A DNA stretch of 64,000 bases from Acidimicrobiales bacterium (GTDB lineage Bacteria > Actinomycetota > Acidimicrobiia > Acidimicrobiales > JAKAVM01), in NCBI GenBank assembly GCA_027452005.1, contig DAIDHF010000004.1, positions 1 to 64,000 of the forward strand. Reading direction: 5' to 3'. Within the stretch, counting starts at the first letter, position 1; every line of letters begins with the position of its first letter. The translations under genes were made by a program, and so were the position numbers. Below, one piece after another: positions 9,470 through 63,611 of the stretch. The notes below the pieces were generated by a model. The model made no database searches and was not told the origin of the DNA. It worked only from the letters and a program-made list of their open reading frames with translations.

Positions 9470-12400
9470 TTGCCACTATTTCTTCATCTCACTCAAGTGT
9501 CCGAATATCACTCGCCTCGTGGATCGCGAGTTTTTAGTCACCGAAGTTCTAATGGCTATAGGACGGGGAAAACAAAGGGGCTTATTCGAGTAGCCGTTGG
9601 AGTGTTCACGGTAGCCGCGACACTTGCCGTGACCCAGGTTGGAGCTTTTGGAGTCGTGGCGCCGGCTACTTCCCCCATTGCCGTGGGCATTGTGCAAAAC
9701 GTAGATACAACTAATTCAGTCAACTCAGTTGATTGCACTAGCTCCTCATTTTGCATGGCAGTTGACGGGGCATCCCCAAGTAACTCGGTGATCTTCAACG
9801 GGTCGAACTGGACGGTCACCTCGACAGCGTTATCCCCTGCAACGCCTTTAGCACACGTGTCGTGTGTAACCAGCTTGATTTGCTTTTCAACTGACGGTAG
9901 TTCCATATATGAATACAAGTCAGGAAACACACCCCCATGGTTTTCAGTTACACCCACTCCAAGTCCTGCATCGGTATTCTCCTCGATTAGTTGTGCAAAT
10001 TCGGGAGCTGGTTTCTGCGTTGCAGTTGGTGCAGCCGGAGAAGTCTATGAATACAATGGAACAACTTGGTCGAGTGCCATCAGCAACGATTCCACGAACA
10101 ACATTACCTCTGTGTCGTGTCCTAGCTCAACCTTTTGTGCGGCTGTGGATTCGGCGGGCAATACCGACATGTTCAACGGAGCTACTTGGACGGTAACGGC
10201 GGCCCCAGTACCAACTCATACTCCTACAATAGTCCCGGCCTTCACATCGGTATCTTGTTCAACCCTTAGCTTCTGTGTGGCCACTACCTCAACCCCTGAC
10301 ACCGCAGGGTCCTCGTACATGCTTTACTACGTGTACCAATCCAATGGAACCTCGGTTGCCTGGAACTACTACCAGTCCACCGATCTAAATCCCATGGCAT
10401 CAGTCAGTTGTCCTACCGAGACAGTTAGCCCCAACAGCCTTGGAGTATTTTGTCTGGCAAGCGATAAACCAACTTCTGCTTCGTCAGGGTATCTGTTCTT
10501 TAACGGAGCCACCTGGTCCCAGTCAACTCTGGTCGATTCGACGTCTGCTATTACCCAGGTTAGCTGCATCTCTCCGACGCTTTGTTATGGCTCAGATGGA
10601 ACCGGAGATGTGGTCCTTTACAATGGCCAAGGTTGGGCTTATCCACTTCCGTGGTCGCCAAACCCGGTTGACGCAGCACACGCACTTACCTCCATATCCT
10701 GTCCGCTTAGTGCAAGCACAGTCTTTTGCGCCGCTGGTGATGGAGCCGGAAACGTATACCTGACGTCTTCAGGAACCACTTGGTCTGATTCAGTAACCAC
10801 CCATGACACAAATCCAATAAATGCGATTACGTGTTCCAGCTCAACCTTTTGTATGGAGACCGATTCGCTCAAAAATACCAACACGTATAATGGAACCGTC
10901 TGGGGTGCCTCGGTTACCGCAACTGGTCTTACCAACGCTCTGACATCAATATCGTGTATTAGCTCCTCCCTGTGCGTAGGGGCCGACTCAACGGCCACCA
11001 CGCCTTACCAGTGCACTGGCGGGCCGCCTTGTACTTGGGCTGCCGGAACTGCCGGAACCAGCGCCTATAATGCGGTGTCATGTGCCTCGGCGACGTTTTG
11101 TATGGCCGTTGGGCTAAGCGGAGAGGCTGCAACATATCCGGGTTCTGGTACTACCTGGGCTCCAATCACGGCAGTTGACACGAATAATTTTACCGCCGTG
11201 TCATGCATGTCGAGTTCGTTTTGTCTGGCAGTAGATAACCTTGGCTATGCCTACGCCTACAACGGGACAACCTGGACGAAGGAAACCGGGGCCAAGATTG
11301 ACGCCAACGCGTCGCCCGCATTGGACTCAGTTACATGTACGAGTGTTGAGTACTGCGTGGCCATGGACGGGACAAATGGGGACGCGTATGTAGACGTGGG
11401 AGGGTTCTGGTCGCAGAAAGAGGCGGTGGACTCCGGGACAACTAGTGTGGACGTCTCCTGTGTTGCCGTGGGCTACTGCTTTGCAACTGACAACGGGGGA
11501 AACATTTTGGAGTTAGCCAATACCCCGCCTGCTCTTTCGGGGGCCCCAACAGTTGCCCCGTCGGGTTCGGGATCCCTTCAGGCGACCTGGACAGCACCCA
11601 GTCCACCTGGAGGTTTTGGTGGAGTTTCGTCAGGGTCTTACGTGGTCACTTTGATAAACGCGTCGACCACCCCGGTGTCTGAGGAGAACTTTCCAAATGC
11701 GACCACAACTTACACTGCTAGCAGTCTTCAGAAAGGTGACTCGTATGTGTTCTGTGTGTCAATTGTAACTCAGCTTGGAGAGTCCCTTCCCAACTGTGCC
11801 AGCCCGGCCACGGTTGTTGGCAACCCTGGCGGGGTAGTCTTTGTGGCCCACACGTCGAGTTGCACGGTCGGGTCTAAGCCAACTGGCCTTACATCACTCT
11901 CACCGATTCCGACCAACCCGTATGGGAACGGATACGCAGGGGCCTTTGCCGACATGGGACCGTTCTATCTATGCGTTACTGATCCCAATGGGTATGTGGT
12001 TGATGCCTCCTCCAGTGTCACGGTTGGCTTTTTCGCCTTCAACAATGGAAACTTTGCCAATGGGACAATTTTTTCTGGAACGCCCTACGGTCCTCCTCTG
12101 CCGAGTATTGGCGGTCTAGATTCGGTGACAGTCTCCTCTGGTAGTGCAGCCTCTAGTGCTGTCTACTTTGGGACCCCAACAGCTGGGGCTAGTTATACGG
12201 TTTGGGCTAATGCCCCCAATCAATTTACTCCCAACTGTGGGCTGGGATCTTCAGGATATGGTTGTGCGATCGTGAACGCCGACGTCCAGGCCGCCCCATC
12301 TGGAGTCGGATCTCCAAGTGTGGTTGTAGCCCCGAACACGGCAGCATCAAGTGCTACGTACACTGTTACCTTTACCGCAACGTCGGCATTGAGTACCAGT

Positions 12401-14431
12401 GACTACTATCTTATAGATGCTTCTGGCGGAGCAGCTGGGACAGTATTCCCATCTCTTAGCACCGACTACTCGGTTACCGACCTTACCAATGCAGCTGGGA
12501 CTGGCCTGGAGAGTGTAAGCCCCGTACCCTTCAATACGGGTTCAACGGTTGCAATTGAGGTCCCAGGACCAGTCAGTGCTGGTGATGAGATTCAGCTCAC
12601 AATTTCAAATGTGACTAATCCCTCGTCTCCTGGGTCTGCTGATTACATGTACGTGTATACCAGCCAAGACGGACTACCTACCAAGACAAACTCGTACGCT
12701 ATTGGGGTCGGGTCGACCATGGCGATCCTGTCAGGTAATAATCAGAGCACCGGACTCGACCAGGCCTTTGGTTCAGTGCTTGAGGTGGTAATTAAAAATG
12801 CGAGTGGGGTCGTCCAGCCCAATATTCAGGTCACCTTTACGGCCCCTATCCAAGGTGCATCAGGCACCTTTCAGGCTTCTGGGTCTTATCTTGAGTCTGA
12901 CACGACTAACGCCCAAGGGGTAGCTACGTCAAGCATCTTTACGTCTAACTCTACCGGGGGAACTTATACGATTTTTGCGAAGGCCCCTGGGGTGAGCACG
13001 GTTATCTTCACCATGACAAACGGGTCCAATCAAGCCATTTCAACGATCAACTCGGCACTGATTGCAAGTCCGACCCTGGTGGCAGCGAATGGAGTCACTC
13101 CGACCTTGTTGACCGTTACTCTAATGAATGGATCAAAGGTGCCCGTACAGAATAAAACAATCTCCGTGGCCGCCTCTAGTGGTACATCTGCTGTTGTAAC
13201 TGCGGTGAATCCCGTAACTAACTCAAATGGGCAAGCGACGTTTGAAGCTACTGATACGGTAGCAGAGACGGTCACCTTTACAGCCTCTGACACGACGGAC
13301 TCGGTAACAGTAAACGAACAGGCCCAAGTTACCTTTACCGCTACCCCGGTAGTAACGGTAAACCCAACCCAGCTGAACTTTACCTCCCAGGCGGTTGGGA
13401 CCAAGTCAACCTCACAAACGGTTACCTTCAAGAATGGTGGGGGAGAGAGTCTGACTATTTTCAACATAACCGTTCAGGGACCCGATCAAAACGACTTTAC
13501 GATCTCGGGCACAAACTGTTCGGGAACCCAACTCGGGGCAGGCCAGAGTTGTTCAATCTTTGTAGAGTTCACCCCGGTTGGTACGGGTACGAGAAGCGCC
13601 TCTCTGGAGATTATCGACAACGCAGTAACTAGTCCGCAGATTATCACGGCCACCGGGATAGGTTCGGGCTCCACCACGACCACTTCGGCTACCGGATACT
13701 GGTTAGCCGGATCCAATGGACAGGTATATCCCTTCAAGGCTGCTGGCAACTTTGGGTCGGCGGCAAATATTGCCCTTGCCGCGCCTGTAGTTGGAATGGC
13801 CGACAACATCACCCAGACCGGTTACTGGTTGGCGGCTTCTGACGGTGGAGTGTTTACCTATGGTGCTGCAAACTTCTGGGGTTCGGCGGGAAATCTACGC
13901 CTAGTTGAACCAGTAGTTGGGATTGCGGCAACCCCGGTTGGCAAAGGTTACTGGCTAGTTGCCGCCGACGGTGGAATATTCTCGTATGGGAATGCCGTTT
14001 TTTACGGGTCTATGGGTGGGATAAATCTGACGGCTCCAGTAGTTGGGATGGTCGCCACTCCTGACGGGCGGGGATACTGGGAGGTTGCCTCCGACGGAGG
14101 CGTCTTTACCTTTGGGGACGCCTCATTTGAGGGTTCGGCATCTGGACTGGCTGCGGCCAATGTGGTCGGAATGGCTACGACTCAAGATGGTCTTGGTTAC
14201 TGGTTGGTCGACTCCTTTGGCGACGTATACAACTTTGGGGATGCGGCCAGTTATGGAGGTGCCAACGGTGCACCAGCCTCGGCAATTGCGGCTACTCCTG
14301 ACGGCAAGGGGTACTGGATTGTAACCGTTCTAGGTCAGGTGATTACATTTGGTGACGCCGGATTTGGGGGAGACCTTTCATCGGCGCCACCCACTTACCC
14401 GGTTATAGCAATCGTCCCCGTACACAGTTGA
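9470..14431 (+). CDS. Large secreted repeat protein: about 14 SxSC-x(5-7)-C propeller-like repeats, Ig/FN3-like and choice-of-anchor-like modules, C-terminal GYW repeat array
   Basis: 1653-aa ORF; hydrophobic N-terminus GLIRVAVGVFTVAATLAVTQVGAFG; repeats such as SVSCPSSTFCAAVDSAGN; C-terminal GYWLVAADGGIFSYGNAVFYGS repeats. Confidence 0.85.
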   Translation: MPLFLHLTQVSEYHSPRGSRVFSHRSSNGYRTGKTKGLIRVAVGVFTVAATLAVTQVGAFGVVAPATSPIAVGIVQNVDTTNSVNSVDCTSSSFCMAVDGASPSNSVIFNGSNWTVTSTALSPATPLAHVSCVTSLICFSTDGSSIYEYKSGNTPPWFSVTPTPSPASVFSSISCANSGAGFCVAVGAAGEVYEYNGTTWSSAISNDSTNNITSVSCPSSTFCAAVDSAGNTDMFNGATWTVTAAPVPTHTPTIVPAFTSVSCSTLSFCVATTSTPDTAGSSYMLYYVYQSNGTSVAWNYYQSTDLNPMASVSCPTETVSPNSLGVFCLASDKPTSASSGYLFFNGATWSQSTLVDSTSAITQVSCISPTLCYGSDGTGDVVLYNGQGWAYPLPWSPNPVDAAHALTSISCPLSASTVFCAAGDGAGNVYLTSSGTTWSDSVTTHDTNPINAITCSSSTFCMETDSLKNTNTYNGTVWGASVTATGLTNALTSISCISSSLCVGADSTATTPYQCTGGPPCTWAAGTAGTSAYNAVSCASATFCMAVGLSGEAATYPGSGTTWAPITAVDTNNFTAVSCMSSSFCLAVDNLGYAYAYNGTTWTKETGAKIDANASPALDSVTCTSVEYCVAMDGTNGDAYVDVGGFWSQKEAVDSGTTSVDVSCVAVGYCFATDNGGNILELANTPPALSGAPTVAPSGSGSLQATWTAPSPPGGFGGVSSGSYVVTLINASTTPVSEENFPNATTTYTASSLQKGDSYVFCVSIVTQLGESLPNCASPATVVGNPGGVVFVAHTSSCTVGSKPTGLTSLSPIPTNPYGNGYAGAFADMGPFYLCVTDPNGYVVDASSSVTVGFFAFNNGNFANGTIFSGTPYGPPLPSIGGLDSVTVSSGSAASSAVYFGTPTAGASYTVWANAPNQFTPNCGLGSSGYGCAIVNADVQAAPSGVGSPSVVVAPNTAASSATYTVTFTATSALSTSDYYLIDASGGAAGTVFPSLSTDYSVTDLTNAAGTGLESVSPVPFNTGSTVAIEVPGPVSAGDEIQLTISNVTNPSSPGSADYMYVYTSQDGLPTKTNSYAIGVGSTMAILSGNNQSTGLDQAFGSVLEVVIKNASGVVQPNIQVTFTAPIQGASGTFQASGSYLESDTTNAQGVATSSIFTSNSTGGTYTIFAKAPGVSTVIFTMTNGSNQAISTINSALIASPTLVAANGVTPTLLTVTLMNGSKVPVQNKTISVAASSGTSAVVTAVNPVTNSNGQATFEATDTVAETVTFTASDTTDSVTVNEQAQVTFTATPVVTVNPTQLNFTSQAVGTKSTSQTVTFKNGGGESLTIFNITVQGPDQNDFTISGTNCSGTQLGAGQSCSIFVEFTPVGTGTRSASLEIIDNAVTSPQIITATGIGSGSTTTTSATGYWLAGSNGQVYPFKAAGNFGSAANIALAAPVVGMADNITQTGYWLAASDGGVFTYGAANFWGSAGNLRLVEPVVGIAATPVGKGYWLVAADGGIFSYGNAVFYGSMGGINLTAPVVGMVATPDGRGYWEVASDGGVFTFGDASFEGSASGLAAANVVGMATTQDGLGYWLVDSFGDVYNFGDAASYGGANGAPASAIAATPDGKGYWIVTVLGQVITFGDAGFGGDLSSAPPTYPVIAIVPVHS
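13690..14430 (+). repeat. C-terminal GYW(L/E)VASDGGxFxFGDAxFxGS protein repeat array (about 6 units)
   Basis: GYWLAGSNGQVYPF / GYWLAASDGGVFTYGAANFWGS / GYWLVAADGGIFSYGNAVFYGS / GYWEVASDGGVFTFGDASFEGS / GYWLVDSFGDVYNFGDA / GYWIVTVLGQVITFGDA. Confidence 0.85.
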
Positions 14432-14446: not shown

Positions 14447-17290
14447 CTAATTAGGTGCCAGACCCACAACCGGGGGACTGAAACCAAATTCACCGGTCGC
14501 TTGTCCGAGGTCCAAGGAGGTGCCATAGTTAGCCACGTCACCGCTTGAATCAATCATCCAAAAGCCCGTTCCAGCTAGATTGGAGGTGGCGTCGACCACC
14601 GGGGCGGCCATGGGAATTTCACCATAGATTCCGGAGAAGTTGGCATCCCCGTAGGCCCAGATGTTTCCCTCTTGGCTAGCGAGTAGGTATCCCTTCCCAT
14701 CTATTGAGGGCATAATCGCTACCACCCCGGCCTCGGGAGACGGCGTTCCATAAAAGTTGGCATCCCCAAAGGCAAAGACACCTCCGTCAGAGGCCACGAG
14801 CCAGTACCCGCCGCCATCGGGTGTGCTTGCCATTCCCACGACCGGCTTGGCCAAATCAAGTCCTCCGGTAGAGCCATAAAAGTTGGCATCCCCAAAGGTA
14901 AAGACACCTCCGTCAGAGGCCACGAGCCAGTACCCGCCGCCATCAGGGGTCCTAGCCATTCCCACGACCGGCTTAGCTAAGTTGATTCCTTGTAGAGATC
15001 CATACAGCGCTGCATTTCCAAAGGAGTCTACCTGGCCCGATGCTGATACTGCCCAGTAACCCTGGTCTAGAGAGGATAGGATAAATCCTCCCGAGTCACT
15101 AGATCCGCCCACGACGCAGTATGAGTTCGAGACGCATGTTACCGAGTCCACCCTACCAATTACCTGAGAGCTTCCCGGAACTGGCGTCCACGAAGAGCTT
15201 GTCGAGGTTAACTGGTAGATTGAAGTGTCCAGTCCAATCTGGCCAGCACTCCAACAGGTACTACCTGTCGTTTGCAAGACACACGAGATCGAGTTGAGAC
15301 TAAGTTGGGTAGGCAAGCCAGAGTTGTCTGGATCCCAGCTAGATCCAGAGTCGGTAGTCACATATATTGATGAGATACCATCTCCATTTGAATCTAATAG
15401 CCAACATTGAGCTGGGCTAGTACATGACACCGCCGTCTGGGTAGCCTGGAATGTCGATGGGACTGACTGAGTCACCCACGATGACCCCGCGTCAGTCGTT
15501 GAAAACACCTCCAGGGTTCCGGCAATTGGTTGAGGCGAAGAGCTGGTTGGTACGATGCCGGTAACCAAGCAGTCTTGACTGTTTACACAAGAGACACTCT
15601 GGAGAATGGAATTATCCGGAATAGGTCCAGGAGCCAGCGCCTGCCAGGACTTGCCCGAGTCTTGTGATTCATATATGGACGCTCCAATAAGTGATAGACA
15701 CATCCCAGAACTTGTGCACGACACATCTACTACTGTTCTTCCGGGCAGGCCAGACGTCGGAAACCAGCCAAATCCACCATTCGTTGTGTAAAAACCGTAG
15801 TAACCAAGGGCGACACAATCTTGGGTTGAGGAACACGAAATAGAATCTAGAACTGTCTGGTTTAGATACGGCGACATGGTTACATACCACGAACTACCCC
15901 CGTTTTGTGTTGCCATAATTGGAGAACTATCTTGACCAGTTGCAAAGCACTCACTAGCTGAAGGACACGCTATCGATGAAATTTCGGGAGTTGATGGTTC
16001 TCCTTGGTATGTATTTGACCATGTCGTCCCGAAGGCAGAATGGGCCAGATAACTAGACAATACTTGAGGAAGGACGTCGGTTCCGTTAGCTCCCAGGGAC
16101 TGGTCGTAAGTAACCGTCCCGAGACATCCAGTACCGGGTTGACACACCAAAGCAGACGCCCCAGTCGATCTTTGAGAAGTACTTGTTTGAAGTGTTGACT
16201 GGTTCCAGCTAGAGCCACCGTCGAGAGTATAAGCTATGGCGGCCATAGAACCTGACTCGCCTGCAACCCAACAGGTGGTCGGGCTAACACAACTAATCGA
16301 GGTAATTGTCCCATTTGAAGAGGATCCAAATGGGCTAGAGGGTGCATTAGACCAGGTATTTCCACCGTTAGTCGTGAGTTCTAAATATGGGTAGTTCCCT
16401 AGGTCAATACTTCCAGAATATCCACCAGCCCAACACGCGGTTGAAGAAGGACAGTAAATGGAGTTGAGTTCACTAGACCCTAACGATCCTCCGGTATATT
16501 GACTGCCGTCGACCTGCCAACTAACTCCTGCGTTGCTCGTCTCGAAAAGTTGATACGGAAACGACCCTGACTGTGTTGGATAGATGGTCCCGGCCGCAAT
16601 ACACGTGCTGGAGTCATTGCACGAAATTGAGTTGAGGCTACCAAACGTACCTTGAGCTTGCTCGGACCAGCTAGCCCCAGAGTTGTTTGAGTATTCAACT
16701 AACCCGTACGACGAGTTCGGAATCGAGTTGGAGTACTCGGTCCCAACCGCCCAACAGACATTGGAATCTGGGCAAGACACCGAGTTCAACTCGGAGGAGC
16801 CAGGAAGTCCTTGTGAGGGTTGCCATGACTGACCTGCATTGGTCGTATAAATTGCCTGGGCCCCTGTTTCAAGTTGCTCACTAAGACTCACCGGCGTAGG
16901 TGTACTTGCAGAGGACCCAACTACCACGCAGTCGAGGGCACTTGGGCAAGCGATTGACGAAAATGGACCTAACTGGCCAGAGAAATCCTGCAACTGAGAC
17001 CAACTAGTACCAGAATTAGTTGTCTCGAGGATATAACCTCCCGTCCCGGCCATCTCGCCCACGGCCAGGCAGTGACTAGTAGTCATGCAGGCTATTGAAT
17101 TGATCTTAAGCCCACCGGAGCTATGGAAGAGAGATGTCCGTTGTCCAGAAACATCCGAGCTTGTTTTTTGGGAAACTCTAATATGAGGGCCAGCATCCTT
17201 TTGCCGTGCTAGGCCATTGGCTGGTGGCAGGAAAGTAGTAAGCAGTCCCACCAAAGCAAGCTTCCAGCCAAGAGCTGCGATGCTACTCAT
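14447..17290 (-). CDS. Large secreted repeat protein: BNR/Ycf48-like propeller repeats plus C-terminal GYW repeat array
   Basis: 947 aa; repeats SISC(x5)C(W/V)AxG with TTNGGxSW Asp-box-like blades; C-terminus GYWLVASDGGVFTFGDANFYGSTGGLDLAKPVVGMASTPDG; N-terminal hydrophobic segment. Confidence 0.85.
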   Translation of the reverse strand: MSSIAALGWKLALVGLLTTFLPPANGLARQKDAGPHIRVSQKTSSDVSGQRTSLFHSSGGLKINSIACMTTSHCLAVGEMAGTGGYILETTNSGTSWSQLQDFSGQLGPFSSIACPSALDCVVVGSSASTPTPVSLSEQLETGAQAIYTTNAGQSWQPSQGLPGSSELNSVSCPDSNVCWAVGTEYSNSIPNSSYGLVEYSNNSGASWSEQAQGTFGSLNSISCNDSSTCIAAGTIYPTQSGSFPYQLFETSNAGVSWQVDGSQYTGGSLGSSELNSIYCPSSTACWAGGYSGSIDLGNYPYLELTTNGGNTWSNAPSSPFGSSSNGTITSISCVSPTTCWVAGESGSMAAIAYTLDGGSSWNQSTLQTSTSQRSTGASALVCQPGTGCLGTVTYDQSLGANGTDVLPQVLSSYLAHSAFGTTWSNTYQGEPSTPEISSIACPSASECFATGQDSSPIMATQNGGSSWYVTMSPYLNQTVLDSISCSSTQDCVALGYYGFYTTNGGFGWFPTSGLPGRTVVDVSCTSSGMCLSLIGASIYESQDSGKSWQALAPGPIPDNSILQSVSCVNSQDCLVTGIVPTSSSPQPIAGTLEVFSTTDAGSSWVTQSVPSTFQATQTAVSCTSPAQCWLLDSNGDGISSIYVTTDSGSSWDPDNSGLPTQLSLNSISCVLQTTGSTCWSAGQIGLDTSIYQLTSTSSSWTPVPGSSQVIGRVDSVTCVSNSYCVVGGSSDSGGFILSSLDQGYWAVSASGQVDSFGNAALYGSLQGINLAKPVVGMARTPDGGGYWLVASDGGVFTFGDANFYGSTGGLDLAKPVVGMASTPDGGGYWLVASDGGVFAFGDANFYGTPSPEAGVVAIMPSIDGKGYLLASQEGNIWAYGDANFSGIYGEIPMAAPVVDATSNLAGTGFWMIDSSGDVANYGTSLDLGQATGEFGFSPPVVGLAPN
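14759..15010 (-). repeat. Near-identical 126-bp (42-aa) tandem repeat units in the GYW array
   Basis: ggcatccccaaaggYaaagacacctccgtcagaggccacgagccagtacccgccgccatc occurs at 14759 and 14885. Confidence 0.85.
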
Positions 17291-19156: not shown

Positions 19157-20053
19157 TTGATGAACTACTCAATTGGGTTCCCCTGGGGGGCGACGCTTGA
19201 AAGCGGGGAGGTGTTTTCGGGAGTTATGGCCCGTGAACTCGCCAGAGTGTGTGAGCAAGCAGGATACGGGGCAATTTATATAACCGATCATCCGGCACCG
19301 CCCAAGAGTTGGTTGACTAGTGGTGGGCATCCAAGTGTCGACCCCTTTGTTGGGCTTTCGTTTCTAGCTGGGGCGACTGAGTCTATAAAACTTCACACCC
19401 ACCTCTTGATTCCGGCATTACGAAATTTGATTTTGGTCGGAAAGTCACTTGAAGGCCTCAATAATCTGGCACCTGGGCGGGTAATTTTAGGAGTGGGTAG
19501 CGGTTATCTCAAAGACGAGTTTGAGGCACTTGGTGTGAATTACTCGGCGAGGAATGAAATCCTTGACCGATTCTTGTCAACTAATAGTGCTGTTGACCGA
19601 CAAGGTCAAGAGAGAAATACAGTAGCTAACTGTCCTATTTGGATTGGAGGCAACTCAATCCGAGCTATTGATCGGGCAGCCAAATGGGGAGATGGTTGGA
19701 GCCCGATGGCCACGACTACAAAGGCTTCGTCAACCCTCAAGACTCCAGGGATTGAATCACTAGAAGATCTAAAGTTCAAGATTGAAGCTCTCACTGAGCG
19801 CTGGGGGAAAAACAATAGACCAGGGAGGCCAACAATTTGTTATACACCACGGTGGGCAATGATGGGTAATAATAAGTTTCCCGATGTAAGTCAGGTGCGA
19901 GAAAGCCTAGAGGAGTTGCAATGTATCGGGGTTGAATGGGTCTGTTTGAGCCTGCCAGCGAAAAGCTCAAGTGAACTACGAGACAATCTGGCCAGGTTTG
20001 CTGAAGAGTTTATAGGTGATAAGCAGCCATTACGTCTCAAAGAGATTTTCTGA
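19157..20053 (+). CDS. LLM-class (F420- or flavin-dependent) oxidoreductase
   Basis: ARVCEQAGYGAIYITDHPAPPKSW, APGRVILGVGSGYLKDEFEALGV, PIWIGGNSIRAIDRAAKWGDGWSPM. Confidence 0.88.
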   Translation: MMNYSIGFPWGATLESGEVFSGVMARELARVCEQAGYGAIYITDHPAPPKSWLTSGGHPSVDPFVGLSFLAGATESIKLHTHLLIPALRNLILVGKSLEGLNNLAPGRVILGVGSGYLKDEFEALGVNYSARNEILDRFLSTNSAVDRQGQERNTVANCPIWIGGNSIRAIDRAAKWGDGWSPMATTTKASSTLKTPGIESLEDLKFKIEALTERWGKNNRPGRPTICYTPRWAMMGNNKFPDVSQVRESLEELQCIGVEWVCLSLPAKSSSELRDNLARFAEEFIGDKQPLRLKEIF

Positions 20054-20165
20054 TTGTCGGCTATGAACGCATTGGTTCGAGGAAAACTATGTTCTTGAAG
20101 ACTAAACCGGATTTCAACGTGATATATAAGGAGTCTCGTAAGAGAGGATTAAAACCGAACTTTCT

Positions 20166-20453
20166 TCATGCCCAGTTCTCAATTCGAAGACCTGGAACCC
20201 GACTAAACTCTTTAGTGTTGTTAGTCACCAAAATTGCATCTAGAGGTAGAATCTCAAGCGGAGACAAAAACAGTTCAAGTGCTTGTTTATTCCGCTCAGA
20301 TTTACTTTTGGCTACGCCGTATGCCAGTTCGGCGGCCGCAACAGTAGAGATTGCTATATCTCCGGTCCGTTTAGTGCGAAAATGATCGAAAACATGCTCA
20401 GGTTTTGAATTTATAACGTAAATACAGATGTTGGTATCTAAAAGATAGCTCAT
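20166..20453 (-). pseudogene. VapC-type PIN toxin with in-frame internal deletion (95 aa)
   Basis: MSYLLDTNICIYVINSKPEHVFDHFRTKRTGDIAISTVAAAELAYGVAKS...LEILPLDA runs directly into ILVTNNTKEFSRVPGLRIENWA; about 37 residues with the GPxDxxIAAHA region are missing. Confidence 0.75.
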
Positions 20454-20564
20454 TTAGTCATGGAGGTCGGTGCGCAGATCTGATTCAGGTTGACATCGAT
20501 CTATCTGGAAATCAGGCTCAAAAGATGATAGGGCTGATTCAAGAATTTGCCACGAGCTTTCCAT
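20454..20564 (-). pseudogene. VapB-type antitoxin reduced to its C-terminal toxin-binding part (36 aa)
   Basis: Not in ORF track. Minus-strand ORF MESSWQILESALSSFEPDFQIDRCQPESDLRTDLHD; AGGAG 8 nt upstream; stop abuts vapC ATG (TAAATG); AbrB/SpoVT-like N-terminal domain absent. Confidence 0.65.
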
Positions 20565-20583
20565 CTACAAAACTCCTAGTTTA

Positions 20584-20610
20584 GTGGTATATACTTGAAG
20601 TTTATACCAC
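20584..20610. promoter_or_regulatory. 27-bp near-perfect palindrome upstream of vapB remnant (likely operator)
   Basis: GTGGTATATACTTGAAGTTTATACCAC; 12 of 13 base pairs match around a central G. Confidence 0.65.
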
Positions 20611-20673
20611 GATACCTTCCAGACTGCAGTTTTGGGCGAAATTCTAGATTTTATACTTGTGAATCTTTTATAA

Positions 20674-20760
20674 AACTGTTGTGATACTTACCGACATCTC
20701 ACCGAAGAATTGGATGCCCCAGTTGTCCAGCAGCAAATCCGTAACAATCGGCGAAGTTAG
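20674..20760 (+). pseudogene. Possible tyrosine recombinase (integrase) C-terminal remnant
   Basis: Frame ending at TAG 20758-20760 reads NCCDTYRHLTEELDAPVVQQQIRNNRRS; resembles the (D)TYxHLxxE active-site tail of phage-type integrases. Confidence 0.3.
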
Positions 20761-20801
20761 TTTGTGACGGTCCTCGAGCTAACCTGCTTGACCTCAACGT
20801 A

Positions 20802-58832: not shown

Positions 58833-59355
58833 TATTGCCCAGGTTGCTGGTGCCAAGTTGGTAAATCTAAAAACAAACCTTGATCTTCGCGGGAGTTTTA
58901 CTGAAACCTACAGGCAGGAGTGGTTCCCCGAATTACCCCCGATGATTCAGTCTAACCGGTCTGATAAGGTTGCTAACTGTGTGGTCGGGCTACACTACCA
59001 TCTTTTCCAGGCCGACTATTGGTACGTGGTTGCCGGGCGTGCCCGGATTGTGCTTTATGATCTCCGGGTAGGATCACCTACTGAAAAGGGCCTCTGGTCT
59101 CAGGATGTATCCGGAGACGATTCAATAGGGATATACGTTCCTCCTGGAGTAGGACACGGGTTTTCATCTTTGACCGATTTGACGTTGTACTACCAAGTCG
59201 ATTCCTACTACAACCCAGAAGATGAGCTTGGGGTTTTGTGGAATGATCCAGATCTCGGGATTGATTGGGGGCTAGTAGATCCAGTTATCTCGGAGCGAGA
59301 TAGCAAGTGTAAGTTATTCTCACAGCTAACAAGGGACGAGCTTCCCCGCTTTTAG
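58807..59355 (+). CDS. dTDP-4-dehydrorhamnose 3,5-epimerase family protein (RmlC-like)
   Basis: NLDLRGSFTETYRQEW; GLHYHLFQADYWYVVAGRARIVLYDLRVGSPT; YVPPGVGHGFSSL; GTG at 58807 overlaps upstream gene end. Confidence 0.85.
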   Translation: MDLVISVHSIAQVAGAKLVNLKTNLDLRGSFTETYRQEWFPELPPMIQSNRSDKVANCVVGLHYHLFQADYWYVVAGRARIVLYDLRVGSPTEKGLWSQDVSGDDSIGIYVPPGVGHGFSSLTDLTLYYQVDSYYNPEDELGVLWNDPDLGIDWGLVDPVISERDSKCKLFSQLTRDELPRF

Positions 59356-62300
59356 CCTTGGGCAATTCCCACAAAGTTTACAGGAGCATTTTCATTTGGG
59401 GGAACAGAGATCTCGCCGGGAGTCGAAAAGACGTCTGCATCACCAAAAGACTCTATAATCCCAGTCTGGGTAACTTCCCAGTACCCCTGTCCCGATGGGG
59501 TGGCAGCTATCCCCACGACTGGCGACATTAGGGTCATAGCCCCGGTTGACCCAAAAAATCCGGCGTCGCCAAAGGCAAACACGCCACCATCTGATGCCAC
59601 CAGCCAGTACCCGTGTCCCGATGGGGTGGCAGCTATCCCCACGACTGGCGATGCCAAGGTCATAGCCCCGGTTGACCCAAAGAATCCGGCGTCGCCAAAG
59701 CTTTCAACATAGCCACCTGACGAGGTCTCCCAAGAGCCAATACCGGCAGCCTCTAGGGTAGTTGCCACGACTTGTTGTCCGAAAAGGTCTCCGGCACTTT
59801 GAGAAAGCAGGGGGGCTGACCCGTAGGTTAGTTGCGACCCGTTCGAGCTACCTAGAATAAGCCCTTGGCTAAGAGGAATTGGCCCGATAATAATCGACAG
59901 GTTTACCTGACCTGTCTTTGGTTGGTTAGAGGAATCAGCGGCCGTGACCGTTACGTTGTAGGTTCCCCCGGCGAGTGGGACCCCGGATATAAGGCCGCCT
60001 TGAGAGAGACCTAATCCCGGAGGAAGGGTTCCAGTGGTAATTGACCATACATAGGGGGTGCTACCACCCTGGGCCTCTAGCTTTACCGAATACTGGGCAC
60101 CCACAATTGCTCCCGGTAACGACGAAGTGAGAGTAGAAAAGCTAGTCGGTGTTACCGAAGGTGCGATAGTTATTGTGAACCACCCGGTGGCTACTAGGGC
60201 TAAAGTTGCCGTGTCGGTTACCTCAAGTTCAATATTTTGAGTTCCCGAGGCCGTGGGAGTACCAGATATAGTTCCCGTTGAACTCGCAACCACCGACGTA
60301 GCTCCAGTTTGAGGCGATACGGTAAGTCCTGAAGGGAGGGTTCCAGTGGTAATTGACCATGTGTACAAACCAGTACCTCCCGAGGCTGACAACATCGCGC
60401 TATAGGGTACCCCGACCTGGCCTTCTGGAAGAGACACGGTTGTTATTACCAAATTTGGTTGTTCTGCCACCGTGATGGTTATGTTTGTTGAGTACGTGTT
60501 GCCTTGGTCATCGGTCGCCGTTACGGTGATGCCATAAACCCCGGTCACATCGGGGGTCCCTGAGATCTGACCAGAACTAGAAAGAACCAGTCCTCCTGGC
60601 AGGCTTGAACCGGTTGAGAAACTTATGGTCCCGATTCCACCGGAGCCACTAAGAGATGCCGAGTAGGCAACCCCTAAAGTTCCCTGGTTGAGAGTAGTTG
60701 TATTTATGGCCAAACCCGTTGGATCACTAGAGATGACAGCGTCGCCTATTGAGTCACTGGCTCCACAAAACGCACTTGTCGGACAACTCACGGCCTCTAA
60801 AGAGAGCGTTCCTGATCCGTCAATCAGGACCGGCGACCGCCATGAACCACTGTTGAATTCCACAAAGTATCCCTTTGAGTCTACTGCCCCACAAAATACT
60901 GTACTCGGACACGATACTGAAGTAAGAGAGCTTCCAGGATCGATAGTCGTGGGCGACCACGATAACCCGCTGTAGGTGTACTCACTCCCGTTGGTCGCCG
61001 TGGCCACGCAAAAGCTGGTCGAGGTACAGGAAATCGAGGTCAAGTCGACTCCGCTTGCCACGGTTAGTTCACTCCAGGCCCCGGTTGAATAGACGTAGGA
61101 GTCCCCGTTGGTAGCCGTGGCCACGCAAAAGCTGGTCGAGGTACAGGAAATCGAGGTCAAGTCGACTCCGGCCGAAATGAGCGTAGCCGACGACCACGAT
61201 CCTGAGTATGTGTACTCGTGTCCGGTCGCATCAACCCCAACGCACTGGGAACTTGACGCAATGCAGTCGATAGAGTCGACAGCGGTTCCCGAGGCGGTCA
61301 AGGTGGTCGCCGTCGACCAGGTCGTACCACTGTAGATGAATGCGAGTCCTTGTGAAGTGCCGGCTGCACACAGAGTTGAAGAAGCGCATGATAGTCCGGT
61401 TACGGGACTTGACGATAGCGAGCTAGGAATGTGCCAGAAGCTCGACGTGGTTACATGGGACTCCAAGTTCTGTGTTTTGGCGCTGAAAGCAGAAAGCTCA
61501 TGGTTGGTTGACGAACTAGCTTGGGTCGAACTAAAGCTCAAGAGCCACTCATTTGAGTTATTGTCGGCCGCTACACACCCGTTGAACTGAGAGCATGAAA
61601 AGGCCGTGATTTGAGTGTTACCAGAAAGCTGTCCAGCAACCCACGAGCCCGATAAGGCACTGTCATTAGCAAATACCCGACCTCGACTGTCGGCTAAAAC
61701 GCATGAACCTTGGGAGGTGCATCCCCCGGCAATCAGGGGAGTCTGTGAATCAATCCCCGCTACGGTCCACGCTGAGGCGCCGCCGGTGGGGTTGGTTGAG
61801 GAGATCACATTGCCATATGAGTCGCCAATAAGGCACAAGGTGGTCGAGCCACACGTCACGAACTCGGGTTGATTGGCCCCGTCTAGGTTGAACTTAGACC
61901 AGCCCACAGGCGACTGGCTGGTCGGGTCGGTGCTTTCTAAAACGTTCCCTTCGTCGTCTATTGCAATGCAAAGTAGCGTGCTCGGGCAGCTAACCGAGAC
62001 TATTGAGTGGCCAGGATCCGCGTAGATTGAACTCCAAGCCGAGGCAGCTCCAATGGGGTCTGAAGAAACAAGAATATTGCCCCGCTGGTCGCCAGCTACG
62101 CACAACGTCGAATTCGGGCACGAAACCGAGTTGATCGGGGTAGAAAGGTCTATGTCATATATGTTGTAAGAACTAGCCCCCTGGGTAGGATTTTCACTAA
62201 AAAGTACGTCGCCGGTTGAATCGACACCTACGCACAGCTGGCTAGAAGGACATGCAATAGAGTTGACCGTCGACTCGGTTTGAGTTGAGGCGTACCCCAG

Positions 62301-63611
62301 TGTTCCCTGGGACCATGAGGGCGACGTGGTATTTACTTGGGACCCCGTGGCAAGGTCAGGGCCAGAGCTCGCAACACAATTGCCTGGACTTGAGCACGCA
62401 ATTGAAGATACCGGACTTGTCCTGTCAAGCCCGACTTGTGACCACTGCGAGGCCTGTTGAGAGTTTGTGTTCAGGTCTTCTTCGATCACGCCCTGGTTGT
62501 CCACCAAAAAGCATGAACTTTCTGTGGGACAGCTAACTGAGCTAGCCCCGAGGTCATTTGTTGGACTCTGTACCCAAGATGATGAACCAGGATCTGTAGG
62601 CAAGTCAGTGTTGACTAGGGATTTTCCCTGGGTGCTAACCGCAACGCACTCATTAGAAGTAGGGCACGTAACAGAGGAAATATTTGTCGACGATGCTATT
62701 CGAATCGTCGACCAGCTTCCGGCTCCGTTGCCCGGATTGGTGGATACCAGTAGATTGCCGTACACATCTGAGGCAACACACGAGTAAAAAGGTGATTGGG
62801 CGACACACGCGAGCGATGTAAGCTGACTCCCTCCGTCAATATTGTAGGAAGTCCACTTGGGGGATCTATCGAAGGGGTTCTGACTAAAGAGAAAGTTTCC
62901 GGACTGGTCAACTGCACCACACCAGGTGCTACTTGGACACGAGAGCCCAGTAAGGCCTACTCGGACCGGGGGGTTAGCCGACGTTTGATCTATCTCGGTA
63001 ATATCCCAGGTTGGAGTGGACGTGAACGCGTTTGAACTAAAAAGAAAGTTACCCGCCGAGTCGACGGCTCCGCACAGGACACTAGAGATGCAGCCAACCA
63101 AGTTTACACTGTTTGGCGTATCGACTTGACTTGCAGTCCACGAACTCTGGCCACTAGATGGAGCGATAGGCAGAGTGCTTGACGTGTACGTCCAACCGTT
63201 CTTGCCAGTGGCTATGCACGAGGTTATATTTGGGCACGATATTGAGAAAATTGACGAGCCTGATGGCGAGCTGTATTCCGCATCCCATTCCTGTGAGGTC
63301 GTCCAGGCAGAGTTCATCTCCAATATCCTTCCGTGACTGTCCCCGGCAACACAGAGTCCAATGGATGGACAGGCAATTGTGTCAATCCCAACTGCCGATA
63401 TCCCGGTACCGGGTGAAAATATCTCTTGAGGCCCGGAGATGGTTGCCGGGAAGTTAGCTGGAAACCCACTTGGAATACTGGTTGGTGCTGTCTTGGGTGA
63501 GCCGTCAGGGGCAAGAGTCGAGGCTCTGGCCCCAGTGACGTTCAATCCAAACACGCACTCGATTATCAAAACAGGAACGATCCAGATTCGAGTGAGTCTA
63601 GATTTTCTCAC
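59352..63611 (-). CDS. Large secreted repeat protein: about 20 SxSC-x(5-7)-C propeller-like repeats, putative Ig (He_PIG-like) domains, C-terminal GYW repeats
   Basis: 1419 aa; signal-like MRKSRLTRIWIVPVLIIECVFGLNVTGARAS; SISCPNITSCIATG etc.; Ig-like GTISGTPTASGTQNIELEVTD; C-terminal GYWLVASDGGVFAFGDAGFFGSTGAMTL. Confidence 0.87.
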   Translation of the reverse strand: MRKSRLTRIWIVPVLIIECVFGLNVTGARASTLAPDGSPKTAPTSIPSGFPANFPATISGPQEIFSPGTGISAVGIDTIACPSIGLCVAGDSHGRILEMNSAWTTSQEWDAEYSSPSGSSIFSISCPNITSCIATGKNGWTYTSSTLPIAPSSGQSSWTASQVDTPNSVNLVGCISSVLCGAVDSAGNFLFSSNAFTSTPTWDITEIDQTSANPPVRVGLTGLSCPSSTWCGAVDQSGNFLFSQNPFDRSPKWTSYNIDGGSQLTSLACVAQSPFYSCVASDVYGNLLVSTNPGNGAGSWSTIRIASSTNISSVTCPTSNECVAVSTQGKSLVNTDLPTDPGSSSWVQSPTNDLGASSVSCPTESSCFLVDNQGVIEEDLNTNSQQASQWSQVGLDRTSPVSSIACSSPGNCVASSGPDLATGSQVNTTSPSWSQGTLGYASTQTESTVNSIACPSSQLCVGVDSTGDVLFSENPTQGASSYNIYDIDLSTPINSVSCPNSTLCVAGDQRGNILVSSDPIGAASAWSSIYADPGHSIVSVSCPSTLLCIAIDDEGNVLESTDPTSQSPVGWSKFNLDGANQPEFVTCGSTTLCLIGDSYGNVISSTNPTGGASAWTVAGIDSQTPLIAGGCTSQGSCVLADSRGRVFANDSALSGSWVAGQLSGNTQITAFSCSQFNGCVAADNNSNEWLLSFSSTQASSSTNHELSAFSAKTQNLESHVTTSSFWHIPSSLSSSPVTGLSCASSTLCAAGTSQGLAFIYSGTTWSTATTLTASGTAVDSIDCIASSSQCVGVDATGHEYTYSGSWSSATLISAGVDLTSISCTSTSFCVATATNGDSYVYSTGAWSELTVASGVDLTSISCTSTSFCVATATNGSEYTYSGLSWSPTTIDPGSSLTSVSCPSTVFCGAVDSKGYFVEFNSGSWRSPVLIDGSGTLSLEAVSCPTSAFCGASDSIGDAVISSDPTGLAINTTTLNQGTLGVAYSASLSGSGGIGTISFSTGSSLPGGLVLSSSGQISGTPDVTGVYGITVTATDDQGNTYSTNITITVAEQPNLVITTVSLPEGQVGVPYSAMLSASGGTGLYTWSITTGTLPSGLTVSPQTGATSVVASSTGTISGTPTASGTQNIELEVTDTATLALVATGWFTITIAPSVTPTSFSTLTSSLPGAIVGAQYSVKLEAQGGSTPYVWSITTGTLPPGLGLSQGGLISGVPLAGGTYNVTVTAADSSNQPKTGQVNLSIIIGPIPLSQGLILGSSNGSQLTYGSAPLLSQSAGDLFGQQVVATTLEAAGIGSWETSSGGYVESFGDAGFFGSTGAMTLASPVVGIAATPSGHGYWLVASDGGVFAFGDAGFFGSTGAMTLMSPVVGIAATPSGQGYWEVTQTGIIESFGDADVFSTPGEISVPPNENAPVNFVGIAQG
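59503..59754 (-). repeat. Near-identical 126-bp (42-aa) tandem units in GYW array
   Basis: ggcagctatccccacgactggcga... at 59503 and 59629, with gtcatagccccggttgacccaaaRaatccggcgtcgccaaag in both. Confidence 0.85.
60990..61223 (-). repeat. Near-identical 117-bp (39-aa) tandem units in the Cys-repeat array
   Basis: gccgtggccacgcaaaagctggtcgaggtacaggaaatcgaggtcaagtcgactccg present in full in both units; units start at 60990 and 61107. Confidence 0.85.

Follow-up and report, generated by a model that had tools for sequence, protein, structure and literature searches.

Within the window (the whole stretch of DNA that was analysed, 64 kb in length), the remnant of a vapBC toxin-antitoxin operon belonging to the tRNA(fMet)-type VapC family was found at positions 20166-20610 of the minus strand. 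Reading along this strand, a 27-bp palindrome is followed by the sequence AGGAG, the ATG of a 36-aa ORF, a TAAATG junction joining the vapB and vapC ORFs, and a 95-aa ORF (Table 1). Two internal deletions have shortened the genes. A preliminary description of this DNA had reported a 36-aa antitoxin ORF which retains the toxin-binding tail, AGGAG, ATG and TAAATG but no DNA-binding domain, and this arrangement was confirmed at its place on the minus strand. A scan for a promoter consensus gave nothing above chance.

Table 1. Features of the vapBC remnant and its surroundings (window coordinates)
Feature	Position	Strand	Basis
VapB-type operator, 27-bp palindrome, 12/13 pairs	20584..20610		palindrome scan; -46 to -19 of antitoxin start
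Ribosome-binding site AGGAG, 8 nt before ATG	20573..20577	-	read directly; GGAG equivalent in leaders of G001 and other relatives
Remnant vapB, 36 aa: start codon and C-terminal toxin-binding tail	20454..20564	-	alignment with 77-79-aa intact VapBs
vapB deletion scar ATGGAAA, start codon fused to tail	20558..20564	-	breakpoint comparison; ancestral sequence inferred from relatives
Remnant vapC, 95 aa; PIN fold lacking two helices and the catalytic Asp97	20166..20453	-	profile matches, alignment, G001 model
vapC deletion scar TAGATG, 6-bp repeat	20237..20242	-	breakpoint comparison with G001, G156/G129/G377
748-bp interval holding the remnant	20054..20801		between convergent LLM-family oxidoreductase and TetR regulator genes

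The interval occupied by the remnant measures only 28 bp in the sister species G001, where this spot is empty of vapBC. G001 possesses an intact pair elsewhere in its genome, upstream of ftsY (contig C103, locus L090, 3200-3829), encoding a VapB of 77 aa and a VapC of 131 aa. The GC content is 42.6% in the remnant interval, 42.4% in the G001 vapBC pair and 52.7% in the 64-kb window. The operator and the TetR gene are separated by approximately 190 bp of noncoding DNA (20611-20801), to which nothing in the 28-bp gap of G001 corresponds. The neighbouring LLM-family oxidoreductase (19157-20053) is shorter than the family models, and TIGR03619 was matched below its cut-off and in two stretches. 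A genome-wide tendency to in-frame deletions was considered in view of this short protein and dismissed; since the counterpart at the same place in G001 is short as well (285 vs. 298 aa), the oxidoreductase shows no recent loss here. Elsewhere in the window, three very long proteins of 1653, 947 and 1419 aa (9470-14431, 14447-17290 and 59352-63611) carry repeated GYWLVASDGGVF(T/A)FGDA(x)F(Y/F)GS motifs, and similar proteins are present in G001 (L091) and elsewhere in the same genome (L092).

Retained and lost parts of antitoxin, toxin and operator

Alignment with intact homologues, which the preliminary description had proposed as a check, confirmed both deletions against the G001 orthologue. 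In VapB, residues 2-42 (about 41 codons) and with them the whole AbrB DNA-binding domain are absent. A Pfam search of the 36-aa ORF returned no match, hence also none to an N-terminal DNA-binding domain of the AbrB/SpoVT type. The remaining tail aligns without gaps to intact VapBs and has kept their W, F, F and R residues, by which it can be assigned as the C-terminal toxin-binding tail; the match to the NCBIfam VapB models NF040493 and NF047862 is weak (E 0.05-0.09) and limited to their last 32-33 positions. In the Shigella complex, Trp47, Phe51, Phe60 and Arg64 of VapB contact helices of VapC and its active-site acids (PMC3384007). Because the W, F, F and R of the tail match these contacts, it is plausible that the 36-aa peptide has neutralising activity, and binding of such toxins by the surviving tail is conceivable.

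The toxin remnant comprises 95 aa, compared to 131 aa of the intact protein. An in-frame loss of about 37 residues including a catalytic acidic residue had been noted; the reading frame is indeed preserved and Asp97 is gone, but the alignment gave a count of 36 codons (residues 71-106). In a model of the intact G001 protein, the deleted block spans the helices 73-88 and 95-107. Of its columns, 11 show at least 90% conservation; one of these is Asp97, which is identical in all 86 relatives. The acidic residues D6, E42 and E118 have been kept, so the conserved set (D6, E42 and D97, joined by E118 in this VapC group) is incomplete solely through the deletion of D97. For the Haemophilus influenzae VapC1 protein it has been reported that the substitutions D99N and D99G, at the residue equivalent to Asp97, abolish toxicity (PMC4229260), and in the Shigella complex the antitoxin residue Arg64 contacts the equivalent of VapC Asp97 (PMC3384007). 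Judging from these two studies, a PIN nuclease deprived of Asp97 is expected to be inactive. The Pfam PIN profile matched the remnant partially, over the first 75 of its 120 positions (E 3.9e-10; 40.8 vs. a gathering score of 23.6), and the NCBIfam models of tRNA(fMet)-specific VapC as well as VapC proteins of the PDB matched the 95-aa protein in two pieces. The scores remained below the curated NCBIfam cut-offs (117.7 bits vs. 140 for NF047863; 75.6 vs. 143 for PRK13725).

The palindrome GTGGTATATACTTGAAGTTTATACCAC, described beforehand as almost perfect, proved to be so, and it lies at the operator position of the intact homologues. It is the sole palindrome of this kind in the 64 kb, where 0.07 would be expected by chance. 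A related AT-rich palindrome occurs at the same position in all seven intact Acidimicrobiales vapBC loci compared, and the spacing to the antitoxin start is identical in the window and G001; on these grounds of position, the palindrome is taken to be the old VapB operator. Relative to G001, both of its arms have changed from GATATA to GGTATA, which suggests that the operator was kept in step with a DNA-binding VapB until that domain disappeared.

With respect to gene order, TAAATG junction and an operator upstream of an antitoxin-first operon, the locus resembles the VapBC systems of the tRNA(fMet) group, e.g. those of Shigella flexneri (3TND), Rickettsia felis (VapBC2, 3ZVK), Salmonella (6IFC) and the F plasmid (9H6A), with which it also shares the VapB tail motif, the N-terminal half of the PIN domain and the C-terminal TNNxKEF..NW motif. 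These systems have an AbrB-type VapB, whereas in the window VapB is devoid of its DNA-binding domain and VapC is 36 residues shorter, the third catalytic acidic residue being among those lost.

Relatives and the origin of the deletions

The closest comparisons are the intact vapBC loci of G001 and of other Acidimicrobiales (G181/L002), which show 76% DNA identity to the window over the retained parts; the G001 DNA aligns gap-free over the vapB tail and the first 72 vapC codons. Unlike the window, these loci encode a complete VapB of 77-79 aa and a VapC of 131 aa. Neither deletion was detected in any of the seven intact Acidimicrobiales loci compared. Among 80 relatives retrieved from genome_contigs, none has the VapC deletion of the window and all encode a full-length VapC except L035 (3001-3447, a betaproteobacterial MAG), in which the residues following the IGAL motif are suddenly unrelated, with loss of the Asp and the C-terminal part. 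The same mini-architecture was found nowhere else in approximately 800 genomes of the order and phylum, the 80 genome_contigs loci and viral contigs.

Matches to this family were obtained in 11 of 397 Acidimicrobiales genomes. Apart from the remnant in the window, frameshifts or stops have disrupted three copies (G361:C25, G387:C18 and G227:C224), and eight others are open. Since other copies have been destroyed in this way, decay of this VapC family is ordinary in the order. The broken copy on G361:C25 (L113/L128) is a second vapBC, in which the vapB stop codon is lost and vapC contains several stops; G361 carries an intact copy on another contig (G361:C36). In G387:C18 (L129) and G227:C224 (L130), VapC is apparently frameshifted, the remainder being readable in another frame. 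Remnants of toxin-antitoxin modules in which one or both partners are non-functional, as well as orphan antitoxins, have been described in a Klebsiella survey (PMC7192599) and a review (PMC7354431), and the window locus is similar to them. It differs from the surveyed orphans, which comprise at least 50 aa and were counted as antitoxins, in that only the tail is left and the toxin was cut in frame rather than lost.

Short repeats in the relatives offer an explanation for both deletions. At the vapC breakpoint, TAGATG is present on the left side in G001 and on the right side in G156, G129 and G377, in the same codon phase and read as Leu-Asp or Ile-Asp codons, and a single copy is left at the scar in the window. 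At the breakpoint in vapB, where the window reads ATGGAAAGC, the relatives have ATGG or GTGG at the start codon and TTGGA or ATGGA at the tail, again in the same phase. A complete operon for an AbrB-type VapB and a tRNA(fMet)-specific-type VapC has thus probably been inactivated not long ago, each gene losing its block through a slippage event of its own between short direct repeats, a mechanism that we infer from the repeats in the relatives, as we do the presence of these repeats in the window's own ancestor. In the toxin gene, slippage between two TAGATG copies would have removed 108 bp with both helices and Asp97 and ended nuclease activity. In the antitoxin gene, slippage from the start region (ATGG..) to the (L/M)-E codons of the tail (TTGGA/ATGGA) would have removed about 123 bp with the whole DNA-binding domain, so that the operator has no cognate repressor any more. 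Transcription of the operon, if it takes place, would yield the tail peptide and an inactive PIN fragment. Because the repeats share the codon phase, both losses would automatically be multiples of three, and consequently neither the open frames nor the neat start can be cited in favour of selection. Under random frames, two sizeable in-frame deletions without a frameshift have a probability of about 1/9, which is unusual but not significant.

The sequence stems from a draft assembly of 195 contigs, and it could be argued that the real population is full-length or mixed and that the deletions arose during assembly. This is highly improbable. The breakpoint repeats of approximately 3-7 bp are far below any assembly k-mer, so that collapse is not expected; moreover, two independent errors would be needed, both joining homologous codons in frame, and the locus lies inside a contig of 104,731 bp.

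Constraint on the retained codons and possible functions

A codon model with 128 retained codons of eight Acidimicrobiales loci yielded a dN/dS of 0.10 on the window branch against a background of 0.10, values that are based on few taxa and a high synonymous divergence on the window branch. When the last part of this branch was assumed to be neutral, fractions above approximately 12-13% were rejected at the 5% level and the best fit was approximately 1-3%. None of 32 columns with a conservation of at least 90% is altered in the remnant VapC, the mean of the other relatives being 0.88. Since the neutral stretch accounts for at most 12-13% of the branch, the sequences imply one or the other: the deletions are recent, or constraint and thus some function persists. 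The open frames were rejected as a sign of selection, as just 0.1-1 stop hits are expected at neutral fractions of 1-12% of the branch, and for the same reason recent deletion and persisting constraint are inseparable in these data.

One function to be weighed is that of a minimised pair in which the tail binds the shortened PIN protein, the latter having adopted a new, non-nuclease role, e.g. in binding a partner or in regulation. In favour of this, neither frame is interrupted, the codons kept in the two genes have a low dN/dS, and the conserved columns are unchanged. AlphaFold2 run with homologues produced a compact, reduced PIN-like model of the 95-aa protein (pLDDT 90), to which Foldseek matched VapC structures. 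As a folding test this model was discarded, however, because its confidence stems from the alignment of full-length homologues and provides no evidence that the fragment folds. Given that two core helices and the residue bound by the antitoxin Arg are gone and that the architecture was seen only once, such a pair is very unlikely.

On the other hand, the antitoxin tail might have been repurposed. The tail-only VapB, freed from repression by its own DNA-binding domain and made constitutively, would then be kept by selection as an anti-addiction (decoy) peptide which neutralises the VapC of incoming plasmids or other elements, and the catalytically dead, shortened VapC would be a harmless leftover. 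Orphan antitoxins have previously been proposed to act as anti-addiction modules (PMC7354431; PMC7192599). The tail still has the aromatic side chains and the Arg whose counterparts in Shigella VapB make the contacts to VapC (PMC3384007), ribosome-binding site, start and leader length are retained, too, and the remaining codons are constrained as in intact relatives. However, a decoy gives no reason to expect the toxin remnant to be constrained, but its columns show the same degree of conservation as the others; a tail alone also lacks VapB dimerisation, and no relative shares the architecture. The assembly (94% complete) was searched for a resident partner. The remnant was the only VapC of the tRNA(fMet)-specific subfamily detected in it, and neither a second VapB of this kind nor a second operator copy within three mismatches was found. 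Five other Pfam PIN loci above threshold and one PIN match below it were rejected as targets since none belongs to this subfamily, as were two AbrB-type loci above threshold, neither of which has the same subfamily or tail. Thus, a decoy would be without a resident target. The earlier suggestion of a decoy for other VapBC systems found no positive support, and the idea is unlikely. As to an intact vapBC with the same operator, for which a search elsewhere had been advised, G001 has an intact pair with a related palindrome at the same position, and no such pair was found in the same assembly.

Good support exists for the other possibility named in the preliminary description, a decaying module with clean in-frame deletions, from the intact sister orthologue, the phased breakpoint repeats and the additional broken copies. 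The locus is therefore probably a recently inactivated VapBC remnant. As such, it is a clear example of a toxin-antitoxin module being dismantled while its reading frames stay open, and it cautions that deletions may be clean and in frame without pointing to function. Should the tail peptide neutralise VapC, it would represent a natural minimal antitoxin, and the anti-addiction idea would be directly testable.
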